Of a DNA stretch of 64,000 nucleotides, positions 5,530 to 62,412 are shown one piece after another. Where the stretch lies: assembly GCF_000218685.1 (NCBI RefSeq), contig NW_006763304.1, forward strand, positions 987,269 to 1,051,268, read 5' to 3'. Within the stretch, counting starts at the first letter, position 1. Each line of letters opens with the position of its first letter. The position numbers and the translations under genes are program-made. Source of the stretch: Serpula lacrymans var. lacrymans S7.9. Taxonomy: Eukaryota; Basidiomycota; Agaricomycetes; Boletales; Serpulaceae. The notes below the pieces were generated by a model that saw only the letters and a program-made list of their open reading frames with translations, was not told where the DNA came from and ran no database searches.

Positions 5530-6945
5530 TTGAGTTTTCAGGAAATATTGTACAACACACTTGGTGAGTGGATATAAACATGAATGTGAAGCAATGTTGA
5601 GTTATCACAGGGAACTATTGATGTGCTTGTAACACTCACTTTCATCTGGTCAAATTGAGCAAATATCCTTGTGTTGGCTCAAAGTCTCTATCTCTTTTCC
5701 ACAAAAGCACACAGGTCTATTTTCTGTGTTAAAAGTCACCTAGGCCGTTCAATAGCCTACAATACAGCCTATGAGGCTCTTAGGACAATGACCCATGCTA
5801 TGCATGGGATGTTGAGAGAAGCAATTTGTCCAGAGTCAGGACATTTCTTTTCGGTTGTTGGCAACAATATACAGGTGTACTCAAGAATCCGGGACCCTAG
5901 AATTGGGAGGGAAAGTTACATGGTTAAAGGATTTGCTGGTATAGCTGTTGAGATGCAAGACTTTGATCATTCAGCACTAAACATTGAAGAACTTGTTAGA
6001 AGACAAAAGCTGGGAGAAAGAAAGCACTTATCCACTGATATAATACTTGCAGATATTGATTTTCCCCACTTGGAGAAAGTCATGGCTCTTCATTTCCTCG
6101 AGGCTTTGATTGATTTTATTCCAGCTTTGGAGATATATCAATGAGACATTCAGAATATGTGGGCGACAGTCCAAAAACATCAGATCTCACCTACTCAAAA
6201 AACAAACATCATACCTCTGGCTACAAATAGCGCAGATGAGATGCATGTTAGTGGAATAAAAGACAGTGCATAATTTGATCAAAACCCAGCTTAATCTTGA
6301 TGATACTACGCTGGGGGACCACTTAGTTATTTCCGGTGGGGATGGAAAAACCTTCAATCAACTGATCAGGCTCAAAAAAATATCTTTCCATGCATACGGG
6401 GAACCTAGAATCCACACATTCAATAGTATTGATGCTGGAACTCTGGCACACAAAATAGACTGACCTTAGTCAAGTGTTCCGTACTCATTGGGGCAAGGAC
6501 TATTCCCGCAACCCTTTGATGTTAAGCTGCCTGGCATACAAAATAAATAGCCCTACACCAAGCAATCTGAAAAAAGTAGATTTTTGTTAGGGTTCCATGT
6601 TCTTAGAATTGGCTTTGGATGCTCACCTTTTAACCTGTTGGCAGTGAGTGTGAACTTGTTACCTTTACACTAGAGTACACTAACAAGGACTTGAATAGGA
6701 CCTATTTTGGTTGCAAAGATATGTTTCAGTACTTCGCCAATGCAAAATAACAGAATAACCTACCTACATTTGCTGCCCTACTAAAGGCAGCCATGCTTCT
6801 TTTTTGAGGCTATGCTATAACTCTTGCATACAACAATGCACAGGATCCTTTAATAGACACCAGCATGCATGAGAACATGCAAATTGGCTCTACGTGGGTG
6901 GGTGCCTCTGGTCAAACCAATCATACATGGTGCCGAAAGCCATGT

Positions 6946-7745
6946 CATCAGGAAAAACCCTTTTGCTATATAGCGCTATATAGCCACCACCTATATATAT
7001 AAACGCACTCATAGAAACTATAGTACTATCAGTGCAATTATAGCTTTTATAGCTCTTATAGCACAGTAGTAGGCAAAATTTTGACCAAGGGGAGAAGTAT
7101 CTATAATTCCCTCAAACTCTGGATTAATCTAATAAACTTGTTCAATAATAGAAAGAGGCCAAAAGTGTTTGGAGTCAAGTATATTATTATAGGCAAGACA
7201 CTATAAGTGCTCTTATAGCCTATAGCAGCCTACATAGCTCCTATAGCTGTAAAGGTCATAGTTATAATATAGTTCAAGGTGCTTAAAAGGGCTAATAAAT
7301 CATCCAGTATTAATTAATTGTGTAGCCTGTATTAGTGAAATAGTAGTTTGTATCCCTGATACTCACAAAATAAGAATAATGATTTATCCAAATATAAGTA
7401 GTGACAATGAGTAAAAAAATAATCTAAGTCCATAAAAGGTCAATATATAACACCTGTATAATACATTTTATAAGCTCTCATGGTGTAGTGGATAAATGTG
7501 ATGTGTGGCTGTAAATTGCTTAGTCACCCAAGAGCTGACTAGCAGGTTGAGAGTTCAAATCCTGTTTGTGTTAATTTTATTCAATCAGCCACACAACAAT
7601 TTCCAACATCTATAAGAGCATTTATAGAGTTATATGAGGCTCTATAGATGGCAGAGGTTCTATAACAGGTTTGACCACTATAACAGCTTTATGAGTACTT
7701 ATAGTGCTATAGAGCTCTATATAGCTACCCCCATTTTTCCTGATG
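6946..7745. mobile_element. Non-autonomous ~0.8 kb DNA element (CATCAGG termini, Plavaka-like), copy A
   Basis: The ends are inverted: it begins CATCAGGAAAAACCCTTTTG and ends in TTTTTCCTGATG. The interior is AT-rich with many copies of CTATAG-type words in both orientations and codes for nothing recognisable. Copy B (9516-10335) has the same terminal motif and nearly the same length, and holds a transposase fragment that points to the Plavaka group. No convincing TSD was found; a 2-base GT on both sides is possible. It lies inside the DUF6589 relic. Confidence 0.6.
7474..7572 (+). other. tRNA-like (SINE-head-like) sequence
   Basis: An A-box-like TGGTGTAGTGG (about 7481-7491) is followed about 60 bases later by a B-box-like GTTCAAATCC (about 7553-7562), spacing as in tRNAs with a long variable arm. 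The would-be acceptor arms do not pair, so this is not a functional tRNA. It may be a tRNA-derived promoter captured by the element, or a degenerate tRNA. Confidence 0.3.
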
Positions 7746-11918: not shown

Positions 11919-13312
11919 TGTCGATGATGAGAACTGTTGTTGGAAAACCACACACAAAAATAAACTAACACACAATCCTCCCAGATTCCACGGAACTTGT
12001 TTATGGGCTTTGCCTCCTAGAACAGTGGGTGTTCTGGTTGTTTGTGGGGTGGTATGTATAAGGATCCTTCAAAGTAAAACCCAGAGATGTATGGGTGTGG
12101 GTTTTGAGGAGGAGGGATAGTTGGAATATAGAAAGATAGGGGCTTTGTGGCGAGTATAGACGAGCACTACCTTGCTAATCATAGCACAAGGTAGGTTTGA
12201 GAACGACAATATGACGAGGTTCCCAGTGATAGCAGGCTCCTGACGCACAAACTGTAGTGCTCAGAAGGACTCTAATCGAAAGGGATGACAATGACTTCAA
12301 AAGTGGGAAGTGACAATGACAGCAGTTGACAGTGGTAGCAGTGGGAAGTGTTGTGACCACACTGGATCACAAGCAGCAGAGTAGTGAACTTGAATTTAGA
12401 GAAGAAGTCTGGAATGGAGTTCTTGTTCTTTTTACAAGGTAAAATACAGGGGTTTATATAGTAAAAGAAAAGTAGGCTATGCACAGTATAGCTGTGCAAA
12501 AAGAATGAGAAAGAACATGAAGGAAGGAATGTATGCTGACGAATCCTGCGTAGGTAGTACAGGATAAGATTGTCAAAAAAGGAAAAGAAAGGGATAGAAC
12601 AATGAATGCTGTGAGTAATGTCACAGGTTTGTACAGCCATAAAGTAAAGTCCAATAGCAAAAAAAGAGCAGGAAAATCATGATGTCATGGGAAGATGCAG
12701 TAAAAAAAGGGCAAGGCAAAACACTATCAGTATCAACACAGTTCCTTTATTGTCAGTCAGGCATTCTAAAAAATATGTGTCCATAAAAATGATTCAAAAA
12801 TCAAAAATAATTGCACTGTAAATGAATGTTCTGCTGAAAAAAAAAAACTGGAGCCACCAGTCCACCACCTAGTCCAAATCCGACAGTTCCATGGCCTTAC
12901 CAATAGACTGGTTGTATTGGACCACCTGGTCAAACGAGGGAGGGAGGGGAGTAGTCCCAATTTGGGAACAAGTGGGTCCCAGGCAGCGTGTGGTAGCTGT
13001 AGCTGTAGCGAAGACAATGGACGAAAGATAAGTGTACCCAAGTGAATGGGACGGCGATGTACATGGGCGCAATGTGTAGCCAGTGGCCACGCAAAAAGTT
13101 GCCGAAATGCTGAAATGCAGAAAATACTGAATGGAAAGTAAAGGTGAGCGCGACTGGATTGCCTAATAGAGGTGGTGCTGATCAGCCACAAGTTCCAAAA
13201 AGGCAATATTAATTACTATTCCACATGGCACTGTGACTGTGTGGTGCAAAGGCGAGTTTTTTGAATATTTGCTTCATTTTTGACACCTGTCCATGCTACC
13301 AATCAACTTTGG
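11919..13312 (-). repeat. Copy 1 of a 1.4-1.8 kb repeat unit
   Basis: Closely matches 60597-62407 from TGTCGATGATGAG to AATCAACTTTGG, with about 0.4 kb missing inside relative to copy 2 (the gap falls near 13055). Its right end abuts the mariner transposase sequence. No matching flanking duplication was found for this copy. It may be a solo long LTR of the gypsy element at 62539-64000. Confidence 0.75.
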
Positions 13313-13923
13313 ATACCACCATGCTATGCATCTCATCTCCACTCACAAAGCAGAAAATGCTGTCTAGATCACCAAAGCTCTTACCAACATCATCAACCAA
13401 CCTCTTTCCCCAAACACTGTCCGCCAGCACTTGAAAAAAGGCTGGCATGAAGGCTGTGGCCAAGCAGAAACACCCTCTTCTCTCTGCCAAGCATTGTAAG
13501 GCTAGGTTGGAATTGCTCATGCTCACACGGACTGGACTGTGGAGGATTGGAAGAAGGTTGTATGGTCTGATGAGACCAAAATCAATTGCCTGGGGTCAGA
13601 TGGACGCAAGTGGGTGTGGAAAAAGCCAGGTGAGGGGCTCAGTGATAGATTGGTACAGGGAACTATTAAGTTTGGAGGATGTTCCATGATGATCTGGGGC
13701 TATATGACTTGGGAGGGAGTTGGGTATGCTGCTAAAATAGATGGTAGCATGGATGAAGACCTTTACCTTCAGGTTTTGAAGGATGAGCTGCTAAACACCC
13801 TGCAGTATTATGGTTTCAATCCTCCTGACATCATCTTTCAGCAAAATAATGACCCCAAGCATACCTGCAAAAATGTCAAGGAGTGGCTAGATGAGCAGGA
13901 GTTTAGAACTATGGTGTGGCCTG
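13313..13923 (+). pseudogene. Tc1/mariner transposase, left part (helix-turn-helix and first two catalytic Asp)
   Basis: The frame shifts near 13530. Readable pieces: HTH-like LTNIINQPLSPNTVRQHLKK in pieces, KQKHPLLSAKHCKARLE, then VVWSDETKINCLGSDGRKW (first Asp) and FQQNNDPKHTCKNVKEWL (second Asp). The text stops in the codons for W-P at 13923, where the 13.6 kb element begins. The remaining C-terminal part resumes in frame at 27521, so both pieces are one original copy. Confidence 0.85.
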
Positions 13924-13960
13924 TATGGTGGTTGTTTGGTTACAGTTTGATTTTGGATGC
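13924..13960 (+). repeat. Left terminal inverted repeat of the 13.6 kb element
   Basis: Starts TATGGTGGTTGTTTGGTTAC. Pairs with 27484-27520 in inverted orientation; six mismatches, all C/T or A/G. Confidence 0.85.
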
Positions 13961-16329
13961 AAGCCGACGTCCGGCATAATAATTTTGAAATCCCGCTGTC
14001 CCTCTAGAAATTAAATTCATATTAACCAAAATTTGGGCCAAACTATTGATTTTTGATGGGCGATCAACAAAGTGGGCAGTGTTGTGAATTAGTGATTCAG
14101 TGATTTGAATTACAAATTTCAAACGAGTGTGCACTTCAACATAGGATTTGATTTGTTGGCATTATCTAAAGAGTAGAACTATATGCAACAATGAAAGACC
14201 CCTCTCAATCACAAACTCGACTAGACATAATGTCAGCCTCCTCGAATGCTCGCTTTATGGTAGCAGAACCCTATGAAATGTACAAAAAACATGTTAGAGA
14301 AATAAAACATAATAGAGACAGAATACATACTTCAACTGCTAATGAATGGAGTCCGAAGTATAAGCAATACTCGTTGCACTTGTGCAACGAGGAGAAGTTG
14401 TCCAAGGTTGCCGTCCAATTTCCATCACCAAAGTTGTTCACAAAATCACTGAAAGAAAAGATGAAAACAGAACACGCAAAGAGATAAGGACTCACTTAGT
14501 TGTAATAATCTGGCAGTCCGTTAAAATTCCACCAGATCCTGAAAAGCAAAATTAAGTAAGAGATTGTAAATAAGAGAAAGATAAATGTACCTTGAAAGTC
14601 TGAGACAAATACAAGACCTTGCGAGAAATGATACTGTGTGTGCTGTGCAAAGCACAAAAACATTGCAATTTCCAGTTTGGGAGGGGCAAGGTGGTCTCGT
14701 GGAGTTGCACAATTGTTATTAATGTATTTGACAAAATGGCCACTTATCTTCTCTTCAAGAAGATAGACAGCATTGCGCGACTCTCTGGTGTCTTGAGGGA
14801 TGGCCAAAGCGGCATGGACCACACGCAGTTGGGGGATCACTGGGGAAGGAGAAACGAGGGGCCTCTGAGTGAGTTTGTTGTCGACAAAGCTGTAAACAAG
14901 AGCCATCAGGCTCGTTGCCCAGTAAAGGCAATTGGCCTTGTTGAGCATCTTCACTAGCTCATCCTTGACAGCTAGCCCTTTACGCCCTCCTGAAGGACTC
15001 GAGGTTATTGCGCTCTTTTCGGCCCCTTCCACTGCTTTTCTGTAAAATCAATGTTTGGCTACTATAGCCTCTACCCCTAGAATGGTATCCCCCGCTTGCT
15101 TCAATTCACTTTGTTCCAACAATGCAGGGTGGCATGTTTTGAAACTTCTGGCTGGGCCCAACATTGCCTTTAAGCTACAGTCGGCAGTCAGTGTCACTAT
15201 AGGGTGGTTAACCTTGTTCATAACGTCAAAAGGCACCCGTTTCTTCAGAAGATCAGTAAACATAATTGATGGTACTAGGAATAAAATGTAGGTTCCTATG
15301 TCAGTACTTACTTTAGTTTTGCATTAGTACACGTGATGAGAAAATAATACATTTACTTACAAATAGGCTTAGCCAGGCGCCGAACATCCCCTTGTGCCAT
15401 CATGACACTCCGGAGAACAGCCTTGTCAGGCACACTGAATGATGGGACATCTGGCTGCGTAATATCCTTTCATAATATTCTAGACGGCAGCACTTGGCTG
15501 CTGGAACTCGAGGTTGAGGGAGCGAGGGGGCATAGTTCAGGTGTCTTGAGTGGGCGAGGTTTGCTTCGGAACAAGCTTGAGGTCAAATCAGTACATGTCT
15601 TGGTATCATAACGGTTGGATAGCTACACAAAGTCAGTATTGCTTTCAAATGTAATGGCCAAGGACGTACCTTTTCTGCAATTGGTGCTTTGCTATGCATG
15701 GGTAGAGAGTTAGATGTGGGAGGAGCAGGTCTCTTTTTTGTGCGACTCTTTCTGGCTTGTTTTCCACCCCTTGTTGCTGCAAGGAATATCTGTAAGTGCT
15801 GTGAGTATGACAAAGTAAAATAAAATAAAAAGGGCAGGTACTACCCTATCCATTGGACCACCCACATCATCATCATCAGATGATGATATGCTCGGACTCT
15901 GAACATCTTTGTTATGCATCTGTGCTTTGGCATGTTTATCTTCTTCCTTCCATAACAAGATGTCTTCGAAATCTTCCTTCGACATAAGGAGGATGATAGA
16001 TACTTTGATATTGGGTGAAAACTTTGGGGTATTATCCTTAGCTGAGCTGTGAAAGAAAAAGTCATGGAGAATGAATTAACCGCTCGGAGTATTGCTGAGG
16101 CTCTTCAGGGCCGTAAATTAGTAGCAATGGAGCCTTGAGCATCTGTAAGGAGTCGAGCACCAGCTGATGGCCACAAGACCAGGCAACCCACAGAAGATTC
16201 AGGCTCTCAATCACAGTCTCACGTAGTTGGCCGCATTTGATAGAAAGTGGTACAGTAATGTCTCACTCAATATTCTCAAAAGAAGTGTGTGTGAGCATCC
16301 AAAGAAAATCAAGACAAAGTGGTGGACTC

Positions 16330-16719
16330 TGTAACAACCTAGAGTTAGTTACTCTGGCGCACACAGGAACACACTTTAAAGGTAGTGGAAGATGGGGAGT
16401 GGGTACCCCTTGGGCTGCAGTGAGTTAGTTGGTATACAACAGGAGGACTCGCTGAGGAGTCTCCTGGATCTATTGGGGTATATATACTACTACAGGTTTG
16501 TTTGTACATGTGTACTATACAGTTGATGAAGGCAGTGGCTGATGATGTCATAGGGTCTAGCCCGTATGGCCAGCTCCACTGCGTGAGAGAGTTAAGTCCA
16601 AAAGTAAAAGAAAGGCAACGTGGCGCGGGAAAGGGAAATGCCGCGTGGCACTTAAAGTATAAAGTTAAAGCGGAGAATAAAAAGGAAAGGAGATGTCCGG
16701 AAATTGTGTTATCGTAACA
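16330..16719 (-). repeat. 3' LTR of the gypsy element
   Basis: On the plus strand TGTAACAACC ... TATCGTAACA; near-identical to 22199-22589. The same family is seen as solo copies at 8322, 10378 and 27609. Confidence 0.95.
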
Positions 16720-16732
16720 CTACCCCCCTTCT
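16720..16732 (-). other. Polypurine tract
   Basis: On the coding strand AGAAGGGGGTAG directly precedes the 3' LTR and overlaps the pol stop codon (16731-16733). This is the usual plus-strand primer position. Confidence 0.8.
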
Positions 16733-19700
16733 AAGGCTTGACTTCCAGGCGAGACCAAATTCCGGAGGTAGTGGTAAAATTTTCGGGCATAGGTTGAAAG
16801 AGGGAATTAAAAAGGTTTGAATCCATGCCTCTAAGCTTCCTGGGAGCTGAGGGATTCCTAGCATAAAATTCGCGAACAGCGTCGCGGGAGTTTTCCAGAT
16901 GGGATTCTGGTTCCCACGTTCTGTCCTCGTCTCCGTAGCCCTTCCATAGGACCAGGAACTCTAATTTTCCACGCTTCAAGCGTGCATCTACCACCCGTTC
17001 GACTTCGAACTCTTCTTCACCTTCCTGGGTGACTACTACCGGACCGGGCCGGTCTACGCGCTGTCCCGGCAGCGGTCCCTTGTAGGGTTTCACACGGCTA
17101 ATGTTAACCGTGGGTACCACCCTCATTCGTTTTGGGAGTTCCAGCTCCACCGCATTAGGTTTGACTTCCTTAATCCGGTAAGGGCCAATCCACTTTTCGG
17201 TCAGTTTTCTAGACTGCCGGTCTTTTAATTTTAAGTGGTCGGTATCTAACCAGACCAGGTCGCCGACCTTGTAGTCAGGGGCCTTAGAGCGTCTACGCTC
17301 TGCCCTGTCTTTCATCTGCTCTGCAGTTCTAAATAGCGCTTTGCGCGTTTCGTCCAAGACAGACTTCATGTCTTTTGCCATGTTCCCAGCAGCCTCGTTT
17401 TTGCTCTTGCCAGGTTCTACACCCATTCTGGGGAGGTACGATCTAGTAACCTCGAATGGTGCCTTGCCTGTAGCCGACGACTGTTTAATATTGTATGAGA
17501 ACTGGGCTATCTTTAGCCACTTGGCCCAATCCGTCTGTCTGTCATTAATAAATATACGGAGATACTGCTTCAACTCCTGGTTGAGTCTCTCCGTTTGTCC
17601 ATCGGTTTGCGGATGGAACGCCGTGGATAATTTAGGTTTGATGCCCAGCATCCGGCATAATTCTTTCGTAAATTCGCTAGCGAATTGCGGTCCTCTATCG
17701 GAGATTACCGTTTCTGGTAACCCATGGATTGACCATACAAAATCTTTAAATAAGTCTGCCGTACCGGCGGCGGTGATGGTTTTGTTGGTAGGTATGAATA
17801 CCACTTCTTTGGAGAAGCGATCTACTACCACCATTACTGAATCGTACCCGTTTGACTCGGGCAGATCCGTCGTGAAGTCCACCGATATATCCTGCCAGGG
17901 GCCAGCTGGTATCGGGTTCGGCATGAGTTTACCGGCTGGCGGTTGATGGGAATTCTTGGCCATGGCGCATCTTAGGCAGGATTTTACATATTCCTGTATG
18001 TCTTTGACCATGCCAGGCCACATGTAGTTTCTGGAGATCAACTCCATTGTTCGTTGCCATCCAGGGTGCCCAGCCACTGGAGTATCATGATGTCTATCTA
18101 TTGCCTTGATCCTTGCGGACTCAGGCACATAGATTTTGTTTTTAAAATGAAAGAGCCCGTCTTTCCATAAATAGTTTTCATTGCCGTCAAGGCGCGCCTT
18201 TTCCTCCGGGGAGATGTCTTTTCTAAAGACTTCTAGGAGGTCGGAATCTTGCCCGATTCTAACATTGGCGACCCTTGATTGATCTATCAGGGTGACACCT
18301 TTGTTGTCATCTTCAATGCTGTTGGCATGATCCTCTCTTCTAGATAAAGCATCTGCTTTCCCCATTGAGCTTCCTGGCTTATGAATTAATTTATAATTGA
18401 ACCTTGACAAGTACACCGCGTAGCGGGCCTGTCTCCGGTTCAGGTCTCGGGCCGTCATGAAGTACTCCAGGTTCTTATGATCGGTCCAAATTTCGAATTG
18501 GTGCCTAGCACCTTCTAAGTAGTGCCGCCAGTGCTCTAAAGCTCTAATGATGGCCAGCATCTCCTTGTCGTATATTTGATAGTTGCGCTCTGTAGGCGAC
18601 AAACTATGCGATAAATAGGCACAAGGCCTCCAAAGATCATCAGGGCATTTGATTGATAGAACAGCCCCAGTGGCGAAGTCAGAAGAGTCGGTTTCTAGCC
18701 GGAACTCTTTGTCTAATTCAGGGAATGCCAATATGGGCGCTGTTGTAAATACCTGTTTAAGCTTATCAAAAGCTTCCTGTTCTTTGGCGCCCCAATGCCA
18801 AACAAGGTCCTTTTTGGTGAGATCGTTCAACGGTCTCGTGATTTTTGCAAAGTTTTCAATAAACCTTCGGTAGAAATTGCCTAAGCCTAGGAAAGCCCTA
18901 ACCCCTTTGACGCGAGTAGGTTCTGGCCATTCCAAAATAGCTTGAACTTTCTCAGGGTTCATCCTGATTCTGTTCTGGCCTATGATCATACCGAGGAAGT
19001 CTACTTCCTTCACTTTAAAATTACATTTTTCGGGTTTAACGAATAGGTCCCGTTCCTGTAAGCGTCGAAGGACTTCTTGCACGATCCTGTCATGCTCAGC
19101 CTCATCGTCCGACTTTGTAAATATTAATAAATCGTCAATGTAAATGACGACACAGTTTTCCATATCCGCAAAGATCTCATTCATCATGCTCTGAAAGGTC
19201 GCCGGTGAATTGGTCAACCCAAAGAACATAACAAGGGGTTCGAAAGATCCTCGGTGGCACGTGAACGCGGCCTTCCAAGCATCTTCCTCTTTGATTCGTA
19301 CGTTATTGTACCCCCATCTGAGATCCATTTTAGTCAGAATCTTGGCGCCAGCCAATTTGTCTACTAGCTGACTAATTAAAGGCAACGGATACGCGTTTTT
19401 AACTGTGTGCTCATTCACGTAACGATAGTCCATAATCATGCGCTTCTTACCATCCTTTTTAGGAATGAAGAACACCGGGGACGTCATAGGACTTTTGGAA
19501 GGTCTGATGTAACCCTTCCTAAGTTGTTCGTCTATGAAACTAGATACCTCGTCTCTTTCGGGAGCAGAGAGTGGTATCATGTGTCCCTTCCTTGGTTTGA
19601 AGGTGTCTTTCAAATCTATAGCATGGTCCCAAGGCTTAGCCTCTGGGAAGCGCTCTGACTTGTGTTCCGAAAAGACTTTCCAGAAGTCGTGGTACTCGGG

Positions 19701-20603
19701 AGGTACCAGCCTCTTAATCTCTTCCTCAGGTTTCACCTCATCATCGTCATCGTCGATCTTTTCTAAAGATCTGAGCTCGTAAACGTGACTAGCGTTTAAC
19801 TTTTCGAGACGCTCATTGTGACGGACATGATTTGGTTTACCCAAGTTTACACATTCCTGGGGACAACGTGACAATGTGACAACCCCTGTCTGCCAGTTGA
19901 TCTCAGGATTGTGTTTAAATAGCCAGGTCCAGCCTAAGATTAAATTAATTTTCCCTAGTTGGGTAGCCTCGGCAGTGACTCGTTCTCTGTGTCCTTGGTA
20001 TTCGACCACAAAAGAACATTTGTGTGTGATACAGCCACCTGCGTTAAGCGTACCGTCAATGTTATAGACGGGAATAGATGTTTCTAATTTTACAAGGGGG
20101 AGTCCAATTTGCTCCGCCCAGACCTGATCTATGAAGATCCCGTTAGCGCCTGAATCAAGCAGTGCGCTCGTTGAGTGTACTTTGCCCCTGGCAAGGTTTT
20201 CCACGCCAACGTCTAAACGGATCTCCTTTTGGAATAAATACGTGCGCATCAACACACGTCTTGGGATTTCGGGAAAGGGTGGCTCCGAAGAAGAAGAAGA
20301 AGAAGAAGAAGAAGGAATTTTGAATGACACATGTTTTTCTATTTTTGTTTTACCAGAATCAAGCACCCTAGTGTTTGTCTCGCCGGGGCCACGCTCCAAG
20401 GGAGACGCTGGTGCAGCGGTAGTATCATAAATTTTGCAGTCACATTTCTTTATACAAGTACATACTTCTGATAACAATTTTAAAAACTTATTTACAAATT
20501 GGGGAGCCATCCCCGTCATTCCGTTATTGCTCGTGCAACACCCCGGAGCAGGGGCCACTTTGTTGTGGTTTACTTCATTTTTACTAGGAGCTAAGGCACC
20601 CAA
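16731..20603 (-). CDS. pol: Gypsy Pol: protease, reverse transcriptase, RNase H, integrase, chromodomain
   Basis: A ~1,290-residue open frame. In order: protease with ALLDSGANGIFID; reverse transcriptase with MDYRYVNEHT, LTKMDLRWGYNN and the active-site YIDDLLIF; RNase H with LETDSSDFATGAVLS; integrase with zinc finger (HHDTPVAGHPGW ... CLRCAMAKN), VDFTTDLPES, ISDRGPQFAS and the later DGQTERLNQELKQYL, supplying D, D and E; C-terminal chromodomain with VERVVDARLKRGKLEFLVLW, WKGYGDEDRTWEP. This order defines the chromovirus branch of Ty3/gypsy. A run of nine Ser near the N-terminus is encoded by a GAA-type repeat (about 20286-20312 on the plus strand). There is no ATG at the 5' end: the frame is entered from gag by a -1 shift. 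Confidence 0.95.
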   Translation of the reverse strand: MGALAPSKNEVNHNKVAPAPGCCTSNNGMTGMAPQFVNKFLKLLSEVCTCIKKCDCKIYDTTAAPASPLERGPGETNTRVLDSGKTKIEKHVSFKIPSSSSSSSSSEPPFPEIPRRVLMRTYLFQKEIRLDVGVENLARGKVHSTSALLDSGANGIFIDQVWAEQIGLPLVKLETSIPVYNIDGTLNAGGCITHKCSFVVEYQGHRERVTAEATQLGKINLILGWTWLFKHNPEINWQTGVVTLSRCPQECVNLGKPNHVRHNERLEKLNASHVYELRSLEKIDDDDDEVKPEEEIKRLVPPEYHDFWKVFSEHKSERFPEAKPWDHAIDLKDTFKPRKGHMIPLSAPERDEVSSFIDEQLRKGYIRPSKSPMTSPVFFIPKKDGKKRMIMDYRYVNEHTVKNAYPLPLISQLVDKLAGAKILTKMDLRWGYNNVRIKEEDAWKAAFTCHRGSFEPLVMFFGLTNSPATFQSMMNEIFADMENCVVIYIDDLLIFTKSDDEAEHDRIVQEVLRRLQERDLFVKPEKCNFKVKEVDFLGMIIGQNRIRMNPEKVQAILEWPEPTRVKGVRAFLGLGNFYRRFIENFAKITRPLNDLTKKDLVWHWGAKEQEAFDKLKQVFTTAPILAFPELDKEFRLETDSSDFATGAVLSIKCPDDLWRPCAYLSHSLSPTERNYQIYDKEMLAIIRALEHWRHYLEGARHQFEIWTDHKNLEYFMTARDLNRRQARYAVYLSRFNYKLIHKPGSSMGKADALSRREDHANSIEDDNKGVTLIDQSRVANVRIGQDSDLLEVFRKDISPEEKARLDGNENYLWKDGLFHFKNKIYVPESARIKAIDRHHDTPVAGHPGWQRTMELISRNYMWPGMVKDIQEYVKSCLRCAMAKNSHQPPAGKLMPNPIPAGPWQDISVDFTTDLPESNGYDSVMVVVDRFSKEVVFIPTNKTITAAGTADLFKDFVWSIHGLPETVISDRGPQFASEFTKELCRMLGIKPKLSTAFHPQTDGQTERLNQELKQYLRIFINDRQTDWAKWLKIAQFSYNIKQSSATGKAPFEVTRSYLPRMGVEPGKSKNEAAGNMAKDMKSVLDETRKALFRTAEQMKDRAERRRSKAPDYKVGDLVWLDTDHLKLKDRQSRKLTEKWIGPYRIKEVKPNAVELELPKRMRVVPTVNISRVKPYKGPLPGQRVDRPGPVVVTQEGEEEFEVERVVDARLKRGKLEFLVLWKGYGDEDRTWEPESHLENSRDAVREFYARNPSAPRKLRGMDSNLFNSLFQPMPENFTTTSGIWSRLEVKP

Positions 20604-20608
20604 GTGAC

Positions 20609-21676
20609 CTAAGCCCCAAATTCTTTTCCCTGAGCCTTCATTTCGTTGACCTGTTGGTCATAGAAGAAGGCCCGGATTTCGTCGTAAGAACGACCGGCCA
20701 AAGAGTTGAGCCGATCGTCCGGCTTCTCGGATTCTAATTGGCGCGCCTGGCGCCCTTGATTATTTTTTTGTTGGGCGGCCTGCGCCCCGTTTCTACAGTC
20801 TCGGGACATGTGTCCCTCTTGGCCGCAGTTGTAACAGCTGCCCTTGAATCTGCGCATTTGTCCGCCTTGGACCGCGCCGATATCCATAGGAGCACCCTGT
20901 CCTGGCTGCAGCCCGAACGGCTTGAACCCGTGAGAGTGATTATAATTTTGGTTTGATGACCCAGGGCGCCTCTGGGGTATTGTGGTTTGTTTGGTGGACC
21001 CGCCACCTTGGTGCATAGCGTAGAGCTCCATGGCCCTACCAACTCGTCTGACTTCCTCGGCTGCCAGAGCCAGGTCGTCACTTCTCGTATCCTGCAGGTA
21101 GATCTGCTCTGCAATGCGAGGGTTCACATTGCGTTCCAGCAGTTCTACTGCGTGTTCGTTACCTAACCCTCCTTGGATGGAGAGGGCCAGGAACCGGGTG
21201 ACGTAATCGTCCGTTCTCAGGTTTCCCTGTTTGAACGAACGGATTTGCTGCCGAGCCCAGTCACGCTCAGCTTGTGGTTTGAAGTATTTTTCGATCTCCT
21301 TCTTGAGATCATCCCAGGTAGGCCACACACCCGCGGTGTAGCATTCCTGGAGTCTTACTTGGGCGTATCGACCCGCCACAGGTCCTTTTAGTCGAGATAG
21401 CACCGCAGTGGATACCTCAAAGTCGTCGGCAAATGCTTCCCAGTTTGCCTTGACCCAAATCTGGAGTTTGATCCACCATTCGGCGAATCGCGCTCGGTCT
21501 CCTTCGAAGGCGCCAGGGTCAGCGACGACTTCGACTTTCTTGTTGAATTTCTTTTCTACCGAGGGGGTTGCTACAGGGGGGTTGGCCTGTATCTCGGCGA
21601 GTTGCGAGGTTAACTCAGCTATCTGCACACGCATTGCATGCAGTAGCTGATTCATATCTTGGGATTGCGACGACAT
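20609..21676 (-). CDS. gag: Gypsy Gag (nucleocapsid)
   Basis: 355 aa from the ATG at 21674-21676. A capsid-like region (FAEWWIKLQIWVK, then GPVAGRYAQVRLQE and the segment up to FKQGNLRTDDYVTRFLAL) is followed by a Gln/Gly-rich linker and one CCHC zinc knuckle, CYNCGQEGHMSRDC, for RNA packaging. It ends FGA-stop at 20609. Pol follows in the -1 frame with about 44 bases of overlap. Confidence 0.95.
   Translation of the reverse strand: MSSQSQDMNQLLHAMRVQIAELTSQLAEIQANPPVATPSVEKKFNKKVEVVADPGAFEGDRARFAEWWIKLQIWVKANWEAFADDFEVSTAVLSRLKGPVAGRYAQVRLQECYTAGVWPTWDDLKKEIEKYFKPQAERDWARQQIRSFKQGNLRTDDYVTRFLALSIQGGLGNEHAVELLERNVNPRIAEQIYLQDTRSDDLALAAEEVRRVGRAMELYAMHQGGGSTKQTTIPQRRPGSSNQNYNHSHGFKPFGLQPGQGAPMDIGAVQGGQMRRFKGSCYNCGQEGHMSRDCRNGAQAAQQKNNQGRQARQLESEKPDDRLNSLAGRSYDEIRAFFYDQQVNEMKAQGKEFGA
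20624..20630 (-). promoter_or_regulatory. Candidate -1 ribosomal frameshift site GGGAAAA
   Basis: On the coding strand, in the gag frame, it reads G GGA AAA, the X XXY YYZ form. Slipping back one base after AAA enters AGA ATT TGG GGC, exactly the pol frame, 13 bases before the gag stop. The shift direction and the position in the overlap both fit. Confidence 0.65.
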
Positions 21677-22198
21677 GTCGACTTGTTCTCTTTGGGTAAT
21701 GTAAAAATAGGTAACTGGGGGTCCCCGCTTGCTATCTGCGGATCAACCTCTTCCCAGCTGAGTATCGGATCTCAATCTCCGACTACCCACACTATAGTAT
21801 TTGAAAAGTATATAAAATGTAAATGTAATAAACCCTGGTCCGAACGGTTGTCAGGGGGTGGTCCGCTTGTTAAGCTGTCAACCCTTCTCCAGACTGGCGG
21901 AGGCAAGTGCCCGGCCTGGTCAGAGGTATTCGAAAGTGAAAGTTTTGTATTTTAAGTCTAATCAACAGTGGTTCCACACCGACTGCTGAGCTAAGTACTC
22001 CCCTTAACGCTGGGGGCCGCGTATCACAGGTTTTGGGTTCTTCTCCCAAAGCACTACAAGGCCGTCGCTAGGAGCGCACCTATCTGCTATATGGGATATT
22101 CCTAACCGCTAACCAATCTCCTTAACCCTGGAGTCCGGGTGCCCAAATGATGGGACTTCTGCACACACGTGCGAGAGAGTAGAAAGAGCGAGTCCTAA

Positions 22199-22589
22199 TG
22201 TAACAACCTAGAGTTAGTTACTCTGGCGCACACAGGAACACACTTTAAAGGTAGTGGAAGATGGGGAGTGGGTACCCCTTGGGCTGCAGTGAGTTAGTTG
22301 GTATACAACAGGAGGACTCGCTGAGGAGTCTCCTGGATCTATTGGGGTATATATACTACTACAGGTTTGTTTGTACATGTGTACTATACAGTTGATGAAG
22401 GCAGTGGCTGATGATGTCATAGGGTCTAGCCCGTATGGCCAGCTCCACTGCGTGAGAGAGTTAAGTCCAAAAGTAAAAGAAAGGCAACGTGGCGCGGGAA
22501 AGGGAAATGCCGCGTGGCATTTTAAAGTATAAGGTTAAAGCGGAGAATAAAAAGGAAAGGAGATGTCCGGAAATTGTGTTATCGTAACA
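22199..22589 (-). repeat. 5' LTR of the gypsy element
   Basis: In element orientation begins TGTTACGATAACACAATTTC and ends GGTTGTTACA. Pairs with 16330-16719. Confidence 0.95.
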
Positions 22590-23613
22590 GACTCACCCCA
22601 ACCAACTCTGTTCCAGACTTTCCCTCATTTTTCACATGGTGAAGAGCTATCCTGATCATAACTTGATGTTGAGGTGCTAATGTAGAAGCTAGCATTTTGC
22701 TGCGGTGGTGTGCATGGAATGCATGGTTGGGAGTGTAACCTATAGCCTGAGAAATACTACCCGCACTGGAACCGGCAGACATAGGCATGGTAGGTGGAGG
22801 CATATTGCTGCTAGCAGCATGAGCCACCCCAATATGCTGCCTAGGGAATGATTGTTCTGTGACCAGGTCAGTACTGCGACCACAGACAAGTGAAAATTTA
22901 CTCACCACCATGTTGTGCTGCCAAAGAAGCTCTAACAAGAGCCTGCCGGGAATTTACATCCATGCCATGCGATCGAGAAGCTACTTTGGTGAAGTCTAGA
23001 TTGATCATTGATCCAAGCCCTATCAGCACTTAAGATTAGATTATCAAAATAAAATAACCATACCAACTGGTGTGCCCAACGTTCTACCAGGCTCTCCTCC
23101 AGCTTCGGCACGCTTGAGTTGGTAGTGTGCAGCACAATCTGGACAGCAGTGGTGACCAGATCCATCTTTGCCCTTGATGTACAAGAAGTGGATTGACCTG
23201 TCAAAGTCTGTACAACAACGGCCACAAGTTTTGGTTGATGGACCTTCAGTTGTGGGCGTGAATTCCATGATGGCTATTTTACTTACCATTTCACCCTCCT
23301 AGCGTGGTTTATATGGATTCTTCAAGATGAGTTGCAGTCCAATCTGAGTCAAGTCGAGCCCCAGGCTTCTGTGAATTCCTGAGAATTTGATGGCAACTCA
23401 TTAACGGGCCATCCTCAAGCCATCCTCAAGCACACAACATGTGTATGAGGATCAGATATGGTTCTGAGTCAAATGAGGCCACAGAAATTTTGACCCAAGA
23501 TAATGTCAGCAAGGAACAAATGGGGAAGCAGCGGCAAGTCAGCTAAACAAATTGACGGTTAGTCCTGCAATTCCGTCTACCTAAATAATCTTCCATATCC
23601 TTTCTCCCCATAG

Positions 23614-25583
23614 CATTATCTGCATAACAGACACCACCCTGCTTACACTGCACAGGCGGTTGATCAAATAGGAAGTGTACTATTAGACTGTGCATCCTAC
23701 GTGGTAAGTTTTACAATATTCTCTCGTGCCTACCACATGTTCAAGTTGGTCAACAGCATAATACTAATATTTTTGTTCCTTTACATCTAGCACGTTATAC
23801 TTCCCTCAAACAATGCCCAACCTTCTAGGTACCAATGGATACAAGGTAACCCCAGGTAGATGTGTAGCAGTGACAACCCAAGACTGTCATACTTACTTTA
23901 TGTGCTTTTCCCCACAGCTCCTGATGTTATAATCCGACTGTTGGTGGAGAAATTTGTAGCAGATGGGTACTCCAACCCCAAAATTGTTACCAAACTCAAG
24001 GACCACTATGACACAGATCACCACTCTTTTTCGTGAGCTTTTACTAAGTGTGATACTAGGATATACTGACATGAATGGTTAAACCAGCTTGTCGTTATTG
24101 AAGAAAAAAAGAATGCTCTGGGGCTTAAAAGAAAGAGCTCTCGTGGCCAGGCACACACAGTCAATAGCATTGGACCAACCATTGAACGGGTTCAGGCACA
24201 GTTTCCTCAACAGGGATCACATGATATGAAGGAGATGTTGCAACAAGAAGAAAAGGTTATGGTGCCCCGGTAAGTTATATTATTGTACATACCGACACTC
24301 ACAATGACATTATAATAGACAGGTCATACTGGACTACATGAATCTACACCATCCAGACGAAGTACAAGGACGGCTCAAACGACGACTCAAACATAGCTAT
24401 TTCTGGACAGCAGGAGTCAACAAGTTGTGGTGTTTTGACCAGCATGATAAGTGGTGCCGCTTCCAGCTCTTTTTTCATGTTGAGCTGGAGCCTTTTTCTG
24501 GCTGTGTCCTCTGGCTGAAGGTTTGGTGGACAAATCACAATCCTTGTTTGATATGTGGGTGGTACTGTGACGTTGTGGAGAGATTGGGTGGTAAGTACAT
24601 TTACCTCAGGCATTCCAAATTCTGATCATACTCTTGCGTGGCAGGGATGCCTCTAATCACACAAAGCAACCCCGGCACTGAAAATAATGGCATTGCAAAT
24701 GGCCATACATTACTTCGCCATATGCAAGACTCAGCCCTAGACAAGTCGCTTCAGCATATGTTCAAAGGATCCCACTGTAACATCAAGCCCGAGATCTTCT
24801 GGGGTCAATTCCGAAGACGGTGGGCACCGGGGTTTGAGGCGCTCATTGAATGGGGAGTCAATGAGGGGCTCTATGATGCAGATGATGCACTCGAACGGTG
24901 GCGTGACTTCTATCTGCCCTTGTTGTAATGCGACTAACACAAATCTGTAGGCTAGTATTTCATTATGTTTTTATCCCTTGGATCCAGCAGGAGCTTGATT
25001 GCTTCATTGAGAGATTCAACAACACAAAGTCCCAACACAACTCACACAAGCTCTTACCTCACGGACACCCTATAGATATTTTCAACAAGCCGGAACAATT
25101 TGAGTCGCGCGACTTTGCTGTAAGTTTCTGTTTCTTCATTTCTATCACCCTGTTTACTTATGCATGCTTGTCCAGGTTAAGCTCCATCCACCATATCTCA
25201 TTGAAGTGCGAAACAAGTATGCACCCCCTGATCATGCTGTCTTCAACTTAGTCCCTCCAGCCTTTGCATTACAAGCTTGCACATTCTCAGATGCCGCAAA
25301 CTACCCACCAGTCAGTTGGGACAATGTATGGGACATTTACATCCACCTGCTCAAGCAGTTTCAAAGCCAGCCAAACAACATCGAATTCCAGGCTATGCTG
25401 GCCAAGTCTGCTATTTCCGACAACGCAAAAGACTTCATGCCGGTTGTACCTCTTCCACCACACCGGCAAGGGAGACCCGCTGTGGGAGGCGCACCACATA
25501 ATGCCGCATGCTACTCATCAGACGAAGCAGAGACTGACTTTGAATATGAATGGACGGATGATCCGGATGGAACCTGGGATTGA
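23614..25583 (+). pseudogene. Integrase-core (DDE, IS3EU-type) transposase of the 13.6 kb element, damaged
   Basis: Exons 23614..23703, 23791..23845, 23918..24032, 24088..24269, 24319..24590, 24645..24897, 24951..25119 and 25176..25583. The N-terminal half is HTH-like (VIIRLLVEKFVADGYSNPK, ALGLKRKSS). The catalytic core reads LWCFDQHDKWCRF (first Asp), FHVELEPFSG, LITQSNPGTENNGIA and KPEIFWGQFRRRW. Phases close at every junction except in 24088..24269, where an A-run near 24105-24115 lacks one base. The second acidic residue, Asp in the family motif TQSDPGTEN as I recall it, is Asn here. I could not join a start codon in frame; the ATG at 23503 gives the wrong phase at the next acceptor. The tail is acidic. 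Probably inactive. Confidence 0.75.
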
Positions 25584-25715
25584 TTTACCTTAGCTAGTGT
25601 CTTGTAGTACATGTCTCATTTTCTTGCAATGTAATGTCTATAATTATGAATATAGAATTACAGTTTCTATTATCAAATTACCGGCCTCCAATCTGAGTCC
25701 TTGTAATGAATTTTG

Positions 25716-26050
25716 TTCGGATACTCGTAGTTAGCAGATGATGATCGAGTTTTGGGCCAACCCTACTTGAAGTCAGTAGAAGGCTTGAGGTCCGGTTTCT
25801 TCAAGGCCGCATGACTGGTGTGCTTGGAGTCCTTCAATACTCCCAGTGCCCGCAATACTGGGGACCTTGCGACGTCATGGAGGATCTTTGTTATTGAAGT
25901 TAGAATCTGCGGAACAGTCGTTCGGCTCATCGTAGTTAGCAGATGATCAAGTTGTGGGCTGACCGTACTTCCTTGAAGTCAGTAGAAGGCTTGAGGTCCG
26001 GTTTCTTCAAGGCCGCATGATTGATGTGCTTGGAGTCCCTCGATCCTCCC
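25716..26050. repeat. Tandem duplication with ~205-bp period
   Basis: Two units start TTCGG...CGTAGTTAGCAGATGAT (25716 and 25921). Both contain GTCAGTAGAAGGCTTGAGGT and TTCTTCAAGGCCGCATGA. A third partial match (CTTGAGGTCCGGTTTCTTCAAGG) lies near 26118. It is inside the 13.6 kb element, downstream of the transposase. No coding function seen. Confidence 0.75.
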
Positions 26051-26805
26051 AGTTTGTGAGCAAAAGGATCCGAACCTTTGTGGTCAGTTGCTTCCTTGAC
26101 TCGGAACTTGACAGAAGCTTGAGGTCCGGTTTCTTCAAGGATGCATTGGAGGATCTGTAGGGAGCTCATTTGAGCCTTCGTAAGTTAGCACTACAATAAA
26201 TAATCGGGCAACTCATTTCTAAATTTCTTCTTTGAACTTGATGGAAGGCTTGAGGCTTGAGCTCCAGCATCTTTGACTTGACCTTGAAGGTTGGCACTTT
26301 GACATAACAGATCAGAAGAGGTGCTCCCTTGCAAACGGCTCATGCTCATGCCCTTTTTCCCATGTCCTTGTATTTGTTTCCTTGTTCCAAACGTGAATGT
26401 TGTGAACACTTGTGGATAACTTGACAAAGTTTCTGCTGCACTGACTTGAGATCCATGTGCGCAAAATGGTCATGTGAGCTGATTTTCCTAATTCGGCAGC
26501 CTTCCTCATTTTTTGTTTTGCTATGACATCTACAACTACCCTGCCTATCCACAACATTGTGTCTTTTGACTCGACTCATAGCTCTGAATGCTGGTATTGT
26601 TACTCCCTTCATGCACCTTGCATATAGGGCTCTGGTTTAGGTTGGCTCACGCTGTAAGGGATCATATACAGGTCAGGATGTTCTCTCTACATTCTGTACT
26701 TACTGATAATACGCTCATGGGGATAATGATAGTGGTGAAACTGGGACCAGTAAGTCGTTTTTTTTGTCAACCATCCCTGCTCGCTAACTCGCCTCTCAGA
26801 TTTAA

Positions 26806-27204
26806 TTGTTTCCATCCTCACGCCTGTCAAATACCAACACTGATGTCCTTTTTGCAACTATCATCCATTGCACTCACCCTAAATTGTCCGCCAGCTCTTG
26901 CACACTCAGTCCCGAGGATTGGTCCATATTCCCCGTGGTCAACGCGCAGATGCTCCAGCCAGGTGTGTCTGCTCTGCTGTCTTATTTGTCAGGTGCAGCC
27001 ATTGTTCCTGCCACCGCCACCTCCCTTGTTACTGTGCCTGCTCCCCATGGTCCAATCACCCTCCTCATTCCACTTCCAGCAACTGGTGCGGCTCCTGTCC
27101 AACCCATCCCCCCTCCCAAGTGTACACACATCTACTATGGTGTCATCTTTGAGGTCCTAGAGAGCAGTGCTGCGGGACCGTTCTGGCTGGTATGTATCTA
27201 CTGA
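26806..27204 (+). other. Unassigned open frame inside the 13.6 kb element
   Basis: An open frame whose product looks protein-like in its second half (ALLSYLSGAAIVPATATSLV, then KCTHIYYGVIFEVLESSAAG) and ends near a donor-like GTATGT at 27190. The first ATG is only at 26950, and I could not join it in phase to the following segment. It could be a third element gene or chance. Confidence 0.25.
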
Positions 27205-27483
27205 GTCTCATCATTTTCATCCCACTGAATTCTTCTGTAGGGCTAAAGCCTCTCTTATTGGCACAGGAGTCGGCCGTGCTGTCTTCATTTGTACTACTTC
27301 AGTTGTATGCCCTGAAAGCACGTCTGTGACAATATATTTATTTTTTCTGGTCTCGCAATCTCTAAGGAAGCTCTCTCGATCTTAATTAACCTATCGCTGA
27401 TCATCATTAACATATCTATAAATTTACAATATAATCTTTGTACAGTTTATCGGCCTTCAAAAAAATTACTAAATTTTAGATCG

Positions 27484-27520
27484 GCGTTCAAAATCGAACC
27501 GTAACCAAACGACCACCGTA
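27484..27520 (-). repeat. Right terminal inverted repeat of the 13.6 kb element
   Basis: Ends CCAAACGACCACCGTA on the plus strand; inverted partner of 13924-13960. Confidence 0.85.
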
Positions 27521-28166
27521 GGCCTGCACAGTCTCCTGACCTTAATCCTATTGGACATGGGTAGGGTTATCTCAAGAGGAGGCTTGCAGAGTATGAATAC
27601 CCTCCTAATGTTACGATACACAATTTTCGGACCTTTAATTTTCATTCTCCTTTTTAACTTTATACTGTAGTTTTCACACATTGTGCCATGCGGCACTTTC
27701 CCTTTTGTTCAAACTCCTCTTTCTCGCACGGCGCGGCCTTCCTTCTTATTTTAGCTACAAGTATCTCACGCAGTGGAGCTGGTCACATGGGCTGTGCTCA
27801 TGACATCATCAGCCACTGCTTTTATCAACTGTACAGTACACATGTACAAACAACCCTGTAGTAGTATATATACCCTAATAGATCAAGGAGACTCCTCAGC
27901 GAGTCCTCCTGTTGTTTACTCACAACTAACTCAGTCCTACCTAAGGGGTAACCACTCCCTCATCACTACCTTTATAGTTTGTTCTAGTTGTGCGCCAGAG
28001 TAATTAACTCTTGGTTGTTACACCTAATGGGATGAAGGAGTTGTGGGAGAGGATTCAAGTGGAGTGGGAGAAGATAACAGTTGCAGAGTGTTGCAACTTA
28101 ATTGAAAGCATGCCTAGGAGTATTTGGGTGGTGCTCAAGGCAAAAGGAGGCTATACCAAGTACTGA
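27521..28166 (+). pseudogene. Tc1/mariner transposase, right part, interrupted by a solo LTR
   Basis: Continues the left part (13313-13923) in frame: WPAQSPDLNPIGHG with the third catalytic Asp, then YLKRRLAEYEYPPNG across the solo LTR at 27609-28022, and MKELWERIQVEWEKI to a stop at 28164-28166. One TGG-to-TAG stop lies near 27562. A likely 3' end of the mariner element is GGAGTCACTGTA near 28392-28403; the left TIR is not seen. Confidence 0.85.
27609..28022 (+). mobile_element. Solo LTR, gypsy family, 414 bp, TSD CCTAA
   Basis: Begins TGTTACGATACAC and ends TTGGTTGTTACA. CCTAA flanks at 27604-27608 and 28023-28027. Orientation is opposite to the complete element's plus-strand reading. Removing it restores the mariner frame. 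Confidence 0.9.
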
Positions 28167-60596: not shown

Positions 60597-62412
60597 GTCG
60601 ATGATGAGAACTGTTGTTAGAAAACCACACACAAAACAAACTAACACACAATCCTCCCAGATTCCACGGAACTTGTTTATGGGCTTTGCCTCCTAGAACA
60701 GTGGAGTGGTCTGGTTGTTCGTGGGGTGGTACGTATAAAGATCCTTCAAAGTAAAACCCAGTGGTGTATGAGTGTGGGTTTTGAGGAGGAGGGATAGTTG
60801 AATTTATAGAAAGATAGGGGGTTTGTGGCGAGTATAGATGAGCACTACCTTGCTAATCGTAGCACAAGGTAGGTTTGAGAACAACGAGGATGACGAGGTG
60901 ACGAGGTTCCCAGTGATAGCAGGCTCCTGATGCACAAACTGTAGTGCTCAGAAGGACTCTAATCGAAGGGGATGACAATCACTTTCAAAAGTGACGAGTG
61001 ACGATGACAGCAGTTAACAGTGGTAGAAGTGGGAAGTGTTGTGACCACACTGGATCACAAGTAGCAGTAAGAAGTGGACTTAAGATTAGAGAAGAAGTCT
61101 GGAATCGAGTTCTTGTTTTTTTTTTACAAGGTAAAATACAGGGGTTTATATAGTAAAAGAGAAGTAGGCTATGCACAGTATAGCTGTGCAAAAAGAATGA
61201 GAAAGAATATGAAGGAAGGAATGTACGCTGACGAATCCTGCGTAGGTAGTACAGGATAAGATTGTCAAAAAAAGAAAAGAAAGGGATAGAACAATAAATG
61301 CTGTGAGTAATATCACAGGTTTGTACAGCCATAAAGTAAAGTCCAATAGCAAAAAGAGAGCAGGAAAATCATGATGTCATGGGAAGATGCAGTAAAAAAA
61401 GAGCAAGGCAAAACACTATCAGTATCAACACAGTTCCTTTATTGTCAGTCAGGCATTCTAAAAAAATATGTGTCCATAAAAATGATTCAAAAATCAAAAA
61501 TAATCGCACTGTAAATGAATGTTCTGCTGAAAAAAAAGAAACTGGAGCCACCGGTCCACCACCTAGTCCAAATCTGACAGTTCCATGGCCTTACCAATGG
61601 ACTGGTTGTGTTGGACCACCTGATCAAATGAGGGAGGGAGAGGAGTAGTTCCAATTTGGAACAAGTGAGTCCCAGGCAGCGTGTGGTAGGTGTAGCTGTA
61701 GCGAAGACGATGGACAAATGATAAGTGTACCCAAGTGAATGGGACAGCGATGAACATGGGCAACGCAAGGGGATGAACCTTCTCCAGCTCAAAAATTACC
61801 CACCCACGCTCCAACCAGGCAAGACGAGCGACCGATGTTTTGATAGTATATGATGGCAGATCGACGTCATGAAGATGGACCTGTTGCCCTATTTGGACCG
61901 GCCGCCGGGGCTTTGCTGATATCAGCAGTGGCACGTGGTAGTCAACGGATCGGCGACGGAAGCGGATAGGAAGTGGTGACATCAGAAATGGTGGGGGTGC
62001 AAAGAAGATGAGGAGGAGGAGGGTGGAGGTGACGAGGAGGTGAACTAAAATGGGGACCCAGAAACGACCGTCGGGTGAGAATAAAAAGGAGAGGAAGGGG
62101 CCCATGGTGGGGCTAGGCAAAGGAAGGGGAGTAAGGGAAACGACAAAAGCAAGGGCGCAATGCAATGTGTAGCCAGTGGCGACGCGAAAATTTGCCAAAA
62201 TGCCGAAATGCGGAAAGTACCGGATGGAAAAGCAAAGGTGAGCGTGACTGGATTGCCTAATAGAGGTGGTGCTGATCAGCCACAAGTTCAAAAAGGGCAA
62301 TATTAATTACTATTCCACGTGGCACTGTGCCTGTGTGGCGCAAAGGCGAGTCTTTTTGAATATTCGCTTCGTTATTGACACCTGTCCATGCTACCAATCA
62401 ACTTTGGTGCAT
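60597..62412 (-). repeat. Copy 2 of the 1.8 kb repeat unit (possible long LTR)
   Basis: Matches copy 1 at 11919-13312 but is longer by about 0.4 kb. GACAT lies at 60592-60596 and 62413-62417. On the minus strand it starts 126 bases after the stop of a gypsy pol gene and ends ...CATCGACA, so it could be that element's 3' LTR. Against this, no clear polypurine tract precedes it, and the flanking GACAT pair would instead suggest an independent insertion. Confidence 0.65.
61563..62105 (-). CDS. Hypothetical membrane-associated protein inside the repeat unit
   Basis: 180 aa from the first ATG (62103-62105); the frame is open further upstream to 62300 without ATG. One likely membrane segment (FWVPILVHLLVTSTLLLLIF) is followed by a basic region (RFRRRSVDYHVPLL) and SVARLAWLERGWVIFELE. 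In copy 1 this region is deleted and out of frame, so the protein is not needed for repeat spread. Family not recognised; sense is the same as the neighbouring pol gene. Confidence 0.35.
   Translation of the reverse strand: MGPFLSFLFSPDGRFWVPILVHLLVTSTLLLLIFFAPPPFLMSPLPIRFRRRSVDYHVPLLISAKPRRPVQIGQQVHLHDVDLPSYTIKTSVARLAWLERGWVIFELEKVHPLALPMFIAVPFTWVHLSFVHRLRYSYTYHTLPGTHLFQIGTTPLPPSFDQVVQHNQSIGKAMELSDLD

Follow-up and report, generated by a model that had tools for sequence, protein, structure and literature searches.

An alpha-kinase as a probable core gene of an IS3EU-type DNA transposon family in Serpula lacrymans

Introduction

IS3EU/GingerRoot DNA transposons are described in the excerpted text of PMC10045372 as having TA..TA ends and 6-bp target site duplications (TSDs). 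IS3EU elements bearing TET genes, from seven rusts and Tuber indicum, are reported by Kojima 2025 (PMC12730594), again in excerpt, with 6-bp TSDs and TAYGG..CCRTA ends; every one of these families has divergent transposase and alpha-kinase genes. An alpha-kinase in an IS3EU-type element is thus not wholly new in print, and the excerpted text holds no analysis of the kinase that we found. Here we describe such an element in a 64,000-nucleotide stretch (hereafter the window) of contig NW_006763304.1 of Serpula lacrymans var. lacrymans S7.9, together with its relatives across the same genome.

The Serpula elements resemble the TET-bearing elements of PMC12730594 (as excerpted) in their 6-bp TSD, terminal inverted repeats (TIRs) longer than 30 bp, TAYGG..CCRTA termini and a transposase gene placed opposite an alpha-kinase gene. 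They differ in three respects. The TET-bearing elements have a TET/JBP gene between transposase and kinase, whereas none of the 18 TET/JBP (PF12851) matches in the Serpula genome lies inside a TIR pair or within 20 kb of a paired transposase; the Serpula elements have an RNase H1-N-like gene downstream of the transposase, of which we noticed none in that excerpt; and the host here is a boletalean mushroom. With IS3EU/GingerRoot they share TA..TA termini, 6-bp TSDs and an integrase-like DDE transposase, but they carry a kinase, and none is described in the excerpt of PMC10045372. Kyakuja/Zisupton (KDZ) elements with TET/JBP genes in mushrooms are likewise DNA transposons with an enzyme gene beside the transposase, tied to gene expansion (PMC12730594, in excerpt), but the transposase superfamily and the enzyme are different.

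The nearest known kinases are the alpha-kinases TRPM7/ChaK, MHCK-A and eEF2K. An initial annotation, made from the letters of the window, took the partnership of kinase and IS3EU transposase to be undescribed. The partnership had been stated in print; its extent in one genome, the co-divergence of the two genes, selection on the kinase and the third gene were not found in print, among the matches listed. We propose that the element is a cut-and-paste transposon of IS3EU type with three genes, in which the alpha-kinase is probably a selected core gene and not occasional cargo. The proposal draws on the pairing of the genes, their trees, dN/dS, active-site residues and fold.

Results

The alpha-kinase accompanies the transposase across the genome

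Searches with a 22-mer of the TIR (up to 3 mismatches) and with a degenerate TIR pattern (1 mismatch) found 61 and 72 genome places, against 1 and 0 in reversed controls, so the matches are not due to chance. They define 19 long TIR pairs of 7.2–22.8 kb, which together cover 199,262 bases (0.47% of the genome). A kinase was detected in 17 of the 19. The two others are C5:2917363 (TSD CGCTCT on both sides), with an assembly gap between its ends, and C19:42900, whose interior holds retrotransposon-like frames and whose ends resemble those of short elements. Within this small fraction of the genome lie 14 of the 23 PF02816 matches, and by this strictest test the evidence supports the statement that the majority of alpha-kinase matches in the genome are element-borne. 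The initial annotation had suggested that the element offers a mechanism for kinase expansion in mushrooms: this holds within the Serpula genome, and for mushrooms generally it is at most a possibility, the data being one genome and contig linkage in four other species, and the published expansion that we found being that of rusts.

That 6-bp TSDs recur in other copies was borne out. Fourteen of the long pairs have an exact 6-bp TSD, three have one mismatch (C13:632576, C12:1217588, C19:42900), one has 7 bp (C14:365979, GAGTTAT on both sides) and one has none (C21:160256, whose right flank is common to C21:116403). Thirty-seven of the 38 ends start with TA and one with CA; several read TA[CT]AG rather than TAYGG.

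The transposase in turn accompanies the kinase at most loci. Locus counts take the young family described below once, and the kinase and transposase genome searches give lower bounds (66 of 66 transposase candidates and 25 of 25 PF02816 candidates were scored). In a formal test a transposase lay within 20 kb at 15 of 22 kinase loci, compared with 0.43 expected at random placement, and all 15 pairs were divergent. C1b, a further TIR-bounded divergent pair found with tblastn, brings the total to 16 of 23 distinct kinase loci; a kinase is correspondingly present at 16 transposase loci, with C17:108722 counted with the C17 transposase gene, as its split-off end. Paired loci C3, C5a and C17 have a TIR-like end, with 1–2 mismatches, on the side of the kinase gene. 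The initial annotation had staked its reading on whether other copies with the same TIRs and transposase hold a kinase: they do, in the same place and orientation, and the partnership extends to almost every copy that can be recognised in this genome.

Linkage extends to other species. Among 14 kinase clusters from outside Serpula, four share both species and the exact length of the longest contig with a transposase cluster. The contigs of Boletus edulis (48,838), Suillus occidentalis (82,938) and Suillus clintonianus (147,019) are short, and therefore indicate linkage of kinase and transposase; the long Mycena citricolor contig (1,468,039) shows less. For the other 10 clusters there was no transposase match on the same longest contig, which is weak evidence because one contig per cluster, the longest, was compared with a list of 103 transposase proteins.

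Besides the long pairs there are six short TIR pairs of about 1.0–1.6 kb, with an exact 6-bp TSD in all three whose ends were read. Elements of about 1.05 kb, with ends of IS3EU type and each flanked by an exact 6-bp TSD, lie at C4:2625150-2626201, C7:1564660-1565710 and C14:155310-156367; their inner TIR sequence is unlike that of the kinase elements. At C14:602304-618739 a kinase element (602912-618293, TSD CAATCT) is nested in a short element whose outer TSD has one mismatch. One further kinase element, L025 (C1:5443220-5452220), has several extra open frames of 150–200 amino acids between its ends, perhaps a nested element or additional cargo.

Kinase and transposase diverge in step

Thirteen Serpula pairs and four pairs from other species were compared, leaving out C9 and C1b (poor kinase coverage) and C1a (kinase stretch not included) from the 16 Serpula pairs. 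Kinase and transposase distances are correlated (Mantel r 0.78–0.81, 0 of 5000 permutations). Five groups are common to both trees: young family, window, C13 and C14; C12 and C2a; C3, C5a and C17; the two Suillus; and C18 with Mycena, the last joined by long branches that the program flagged in the kinase tree. The positions of C4, C7 and C16 are not fixed in either tree.

Both genes bear the mark of constraint. In eight chosen pairs the main kinase exon has dN/dS of 0.08–0.22, no upper bootstrap limit exceeding 0.34, and the transposase exon has 0.04–0.18 in chosen pairs. In frame, pN/pS is 0.08–0.30; the same alignments shifted by one or two bases give at least 0.73. These ratios indicate that the alpha-kinase was kept by purifying selection. 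Because the trees match and the selection is purifying, we regard the kinase as a core gene of the element. The initial annotation had called it cargo, which is right only in part.

The matching trees also bear on whether several element lineages captured kinases separately, so that the presence of a kinase is a recurrent accident. TET/JBP genes do switch transposon superfamilies in fungi (PMC12730594, in excerpt), and the convergent gene order of locus C2c would suit such a history. However, place and divergent orientation are the same in 16 of 16 pairs, and with the two trees in agreement we consider separate captures very unlikely.

A young family and a third gene

The genome contains 11 copies of a 7,307-bp element, seven complete and four with runs of N. 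Of the complete copies five are identical, one has 13 differences and one differs in a 59-base block alone, placed by its position in the final stretch of the transposase gene. The transposase model matches a public predicted protein (98% over its length). The kinase scores 63.9 bits for PF02816, against a curated cut-off of 21.3, and has all 15 of the checked catalytic and zinc residues, at positions taken from the same copy; those in its C-terminal half align with TRPM7.

The kinase frame (nine-exon model) is unbroken in all seven gap-free young copies. This speaks against a functionless kinase carried along as a neutral hitch-hiker, as do the dN/dS values of the main kinase exon, which refer to the period before the copies died. 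Many old copies are broken, as a hitch-hiker would be, but we find this explanation scarcely credible.

A third gene occupies 6476-7100 of a young element (L010). In all eight places that have a paired transposase nearby, it follows the transposase downstream and shares its strand. Its PF01693 score of 18.3 bits is below the cut-off of 21, and we therefore call it RNase H1-N-like and not a member of that family. On these gene models the order in the Serpula family is TIR, alpha-kinase (leftward), spacer, DDE transposase (rightward), small RNase H1-N-like protein (rightward), TIR.

The window element

The boundaries of the window element (Table 1) are those given by the initial annotation, and its 37-bp TIRs, TSD and TAY..RTA ends were confirmed by direct reading and repeat search. 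Termini and flanks read GGCCTG/TATGG...CCGTA/GGCCTG with an exact 6-bp TSD, and 31 of 37 TIR positions are complementary. The 13,597-bp span is not all native, as the 13.6-kb description had implied: 6,260 bp are a younger Ty3/gypsy retrotransposon with its own 5-bp duplication (GACTC, at 16325-16329 and 22590-22594), and the native transposon accounts for 7,332 bp. The long terminal repeats (LTRs) of the retrotransposon (16330-16719 and 22199-22589) are 99.2% identical.

The element was said to interrupt a mariner gene whose frame continues across the insertion. Indeed, with the element removed by script, the joined flanks restore the frame ...FRTMVWP/AQSPDLNPIGH. A 29-mer across this junction, in which GGCCTG stands once, matches 27 genome places when up to 3 mismatches are allowed, eight of them exactly, and its reversed-pattern control matches none; these 27 are empty sites.

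Table 1 Coordinates of the transposon, its parts and its target site in the window
Feature	Position	Strand	Basis
IS3EU-type DNA transposon, TIR to TIR	13924..27520	none	direct reading and repeat search
Left TIR, TATGGTGG...	13924..13960	+	repeat search, 84% of 37 nt
Right TIR, ...CCACCGTA	27484..27520	-	repeat search, 84% of 37 nt
TSD GGCCTG, left	13918..13923	+	direct reading
TSD GGCCTG, right	27521..27526	+	direct reading
5' part of interrupted mariner gene	13281..13923 (left boundary approximate)	+	flank joining
3' part of interrupted mariner gene, holding solo LTR	27521..28165 (right boundary approximate)	+	flank joining
Alpha-kinase gene, decayed	14340..23268	-	tblastn; PF02816 match at C15:1001854
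Nested Ty3/gypsy LTR retrotransposon	16330..22589	-	repeat search; sits at kinase-gene intron (position by analogy with young-copy gene model)
Spacer between divergent start codons	23269..23812	none	544 bp by gene model (starts 23268 -, 23813 +)
Integrase-like DDE transposase gene with introns, decayed	23813..25583	+	start by analogy with young-copy gene model
Possible remnant of third gene (RNase H1 N-terminal-like)	27120..27290	+	matched by eye only

We judged the IS3EU class by ends, TSD, TIR length, transposase type and gene orientation. The IS3EU assignment made in the initial annotation is supported by these features: the transposase is integrase-like with a DDE motif, and the TIRs exceed 30 bp both here (37 bp at 84%) and in the young family (253 bp at about 99%).

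The window copy is a dead element. Its kinase gene is split by the retrotransposon and survives, relative to the young-copy protein, in three pieces, 23268-22597 (residues 1-193), 16274-15362 (194-463) and 15320-14340 (461-754); an exon still scores 33.3 bits for PF02816. We conclude that the copy is dead because the kinase has five stops over aligned positions and the transposase one stop and a second catalytic Asp that reads Asn, although exons were aligned by tblastn and intron bases misread as coding may account for some of the stops. An intact relative of this transposase matches PF24764. The spacer between the two genes, put at about 235 bp by the initial annotation, proved longer (Table 1), and would serve as promoter for both. 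Two native genes had been recognised: kinase and transposase are indeed divergent, but a third, decayed small gene seems to be present near the right TIR, where tblastn gave no match.

Three further observations concern the window. Imperfect direct repeats (82 bp, 94%, spacing 206 bp) lie at 25766-26053, between transposase and right TIR. The solo LTR in the 3' mariner part (27609-28022, reverse orientation) is 77% identical to the nested gypsy kind and has, read by eye, the TSD CCTAA. A retrotransposon-like integrase frame (62539-63936) has a companion frame (SNLWLISTTSIRQ..., 61563-62300) that recurs next to two kinase loci without transposase (L073, L075).

Discussion

Several results count against a core role for the kinase. 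Seven of the 23 distinct kinase loci have no divergent transposase nearby, and three transposase fragments (42, 70 and 98 amino acids) have no kinase. The kinase-locus search scored 59 of 136 candidates, so further loci may exist. C2c has a distant transposase relative on the opposite strand, but convergent. Assembly may have partly smoothed the identical young copies. Over whole alignments with dS<2 the median dN/dS is 0.20 for the kinase (16 pairs) and 0.26 for the transposase (13 pairs). At low dS some values for the transposase are as high as 0.56–0.57 (among the rows listed), as expected where young dead copies decay. Synonymous differences are high (pS 0.46–0.69 for the kinase, 0.41–0.71 over both genes), so the dN/dS values are approximate, yet far from 1. 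The pairwise values come from pairs that are not independent, and selection at the level of the element is not fully separable from selection in the host before capture.

The loci without a paired transposase nevertheless keep traces of the element in several cases. The third gene is present at C14b, which is inside a TIR pair, and at C13b, where its place and strand are as expected and the kinase has three stops; C5c has one TIR-like end beyond the kinase. C2b has a weak 3-mismatch end alone and two kinase stops over aligned positions. At C15b and C5b, with four kinase stops each, no transposase, TIR-like end or third gene was found. Retrotransposon-like frames adjoin C2b and C5b (by eye). 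The sole convergent arrangement seen, at C2:1710224-1713658 (L051), combines a distant transposase relative with a weak alpha-kinase match.

These loci matter for a rival reading, to which the word cargo in the initial annotation points: a signalling gene of the host rides on the transposon and earns its keep, as is thought for large fungal cargo elements. PMC4469406 describes the alpha-kinase family of rusts as highly expanded, and the family is included in a rust comparison table (PMC5295586), as a host role might lead one to expect. Separately, one alpha-kinase is among the rust proteins under diversifying selection (PMC4150398; all three sources in excerpt). However, no intact alpha-kinase locus was seen outside an element context in this genome, the loci without transposase being mostly broken or partial (C2b, C15b, C5b and C13b with their stops, a few of which may belong to introns), and the kinase tree follows the transposase lineages. 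We therefore consider host-beneficial cargo unlikely.

How might a transposon use a core kinase? The integrase-fold transposase would cut and join the TIR ends and so make the 6-bp duplications; TIRs, TSDs and empty sites are observed, and catalysis is the presumed step between them. The alpha-kinase travels between the TIRs, diverges in step with the transposase and was kept working by selection; it would be expressed from a shared divergent promoter. Its most likely target would be the transposase of the element itself or a host factor of silencing, chromatin or repair, and phosphorylation may thereby license or time transposition.

A variant of the same proposal gives the kinase no part in the transposition reaction and sees its main task in protecting the element from silencing by the host. 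The analogy is with the TET/JBP genes that stand beside the kinase in rust IS3EU elements (PMC12730594, in excerpt). The kinase could fill this role in Serpula, since the elements there have no TET/JBP match in or near them. We regard this variant as possible, although we would sooner expect otherwise.

The kinase as a core element gene carries a consequence: most alpha-kinase genes found in the Serpula genome would be transposon genes or their relics. More tentatively, and with confidence that stops a little short of an even balance, an alpha-kinase may be obligatory in the transposition machinery of these elements from rusts to mushrooms, so that the cut-and-paste element would perform a protein-phosphorylation step of its own, and the spread of such elements may explain the alpha-kinase expansions of Basidiomycota.

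Few transposons are known in which selection maintains a signalling enzyme that diverges together with the transposase. Most alpha-kinases of the Serpula genome resemble parts of transposons rather than signalling genes of the host. Should the same apply generally, the number of alpha-kinases in a mushroom or rust genome would measure transposon load and not host signalling, and kinases listed as belonging to the host would be transposon genes. A near-identical young family in one fungus opens the purpose of a transposon kinase to direct test.

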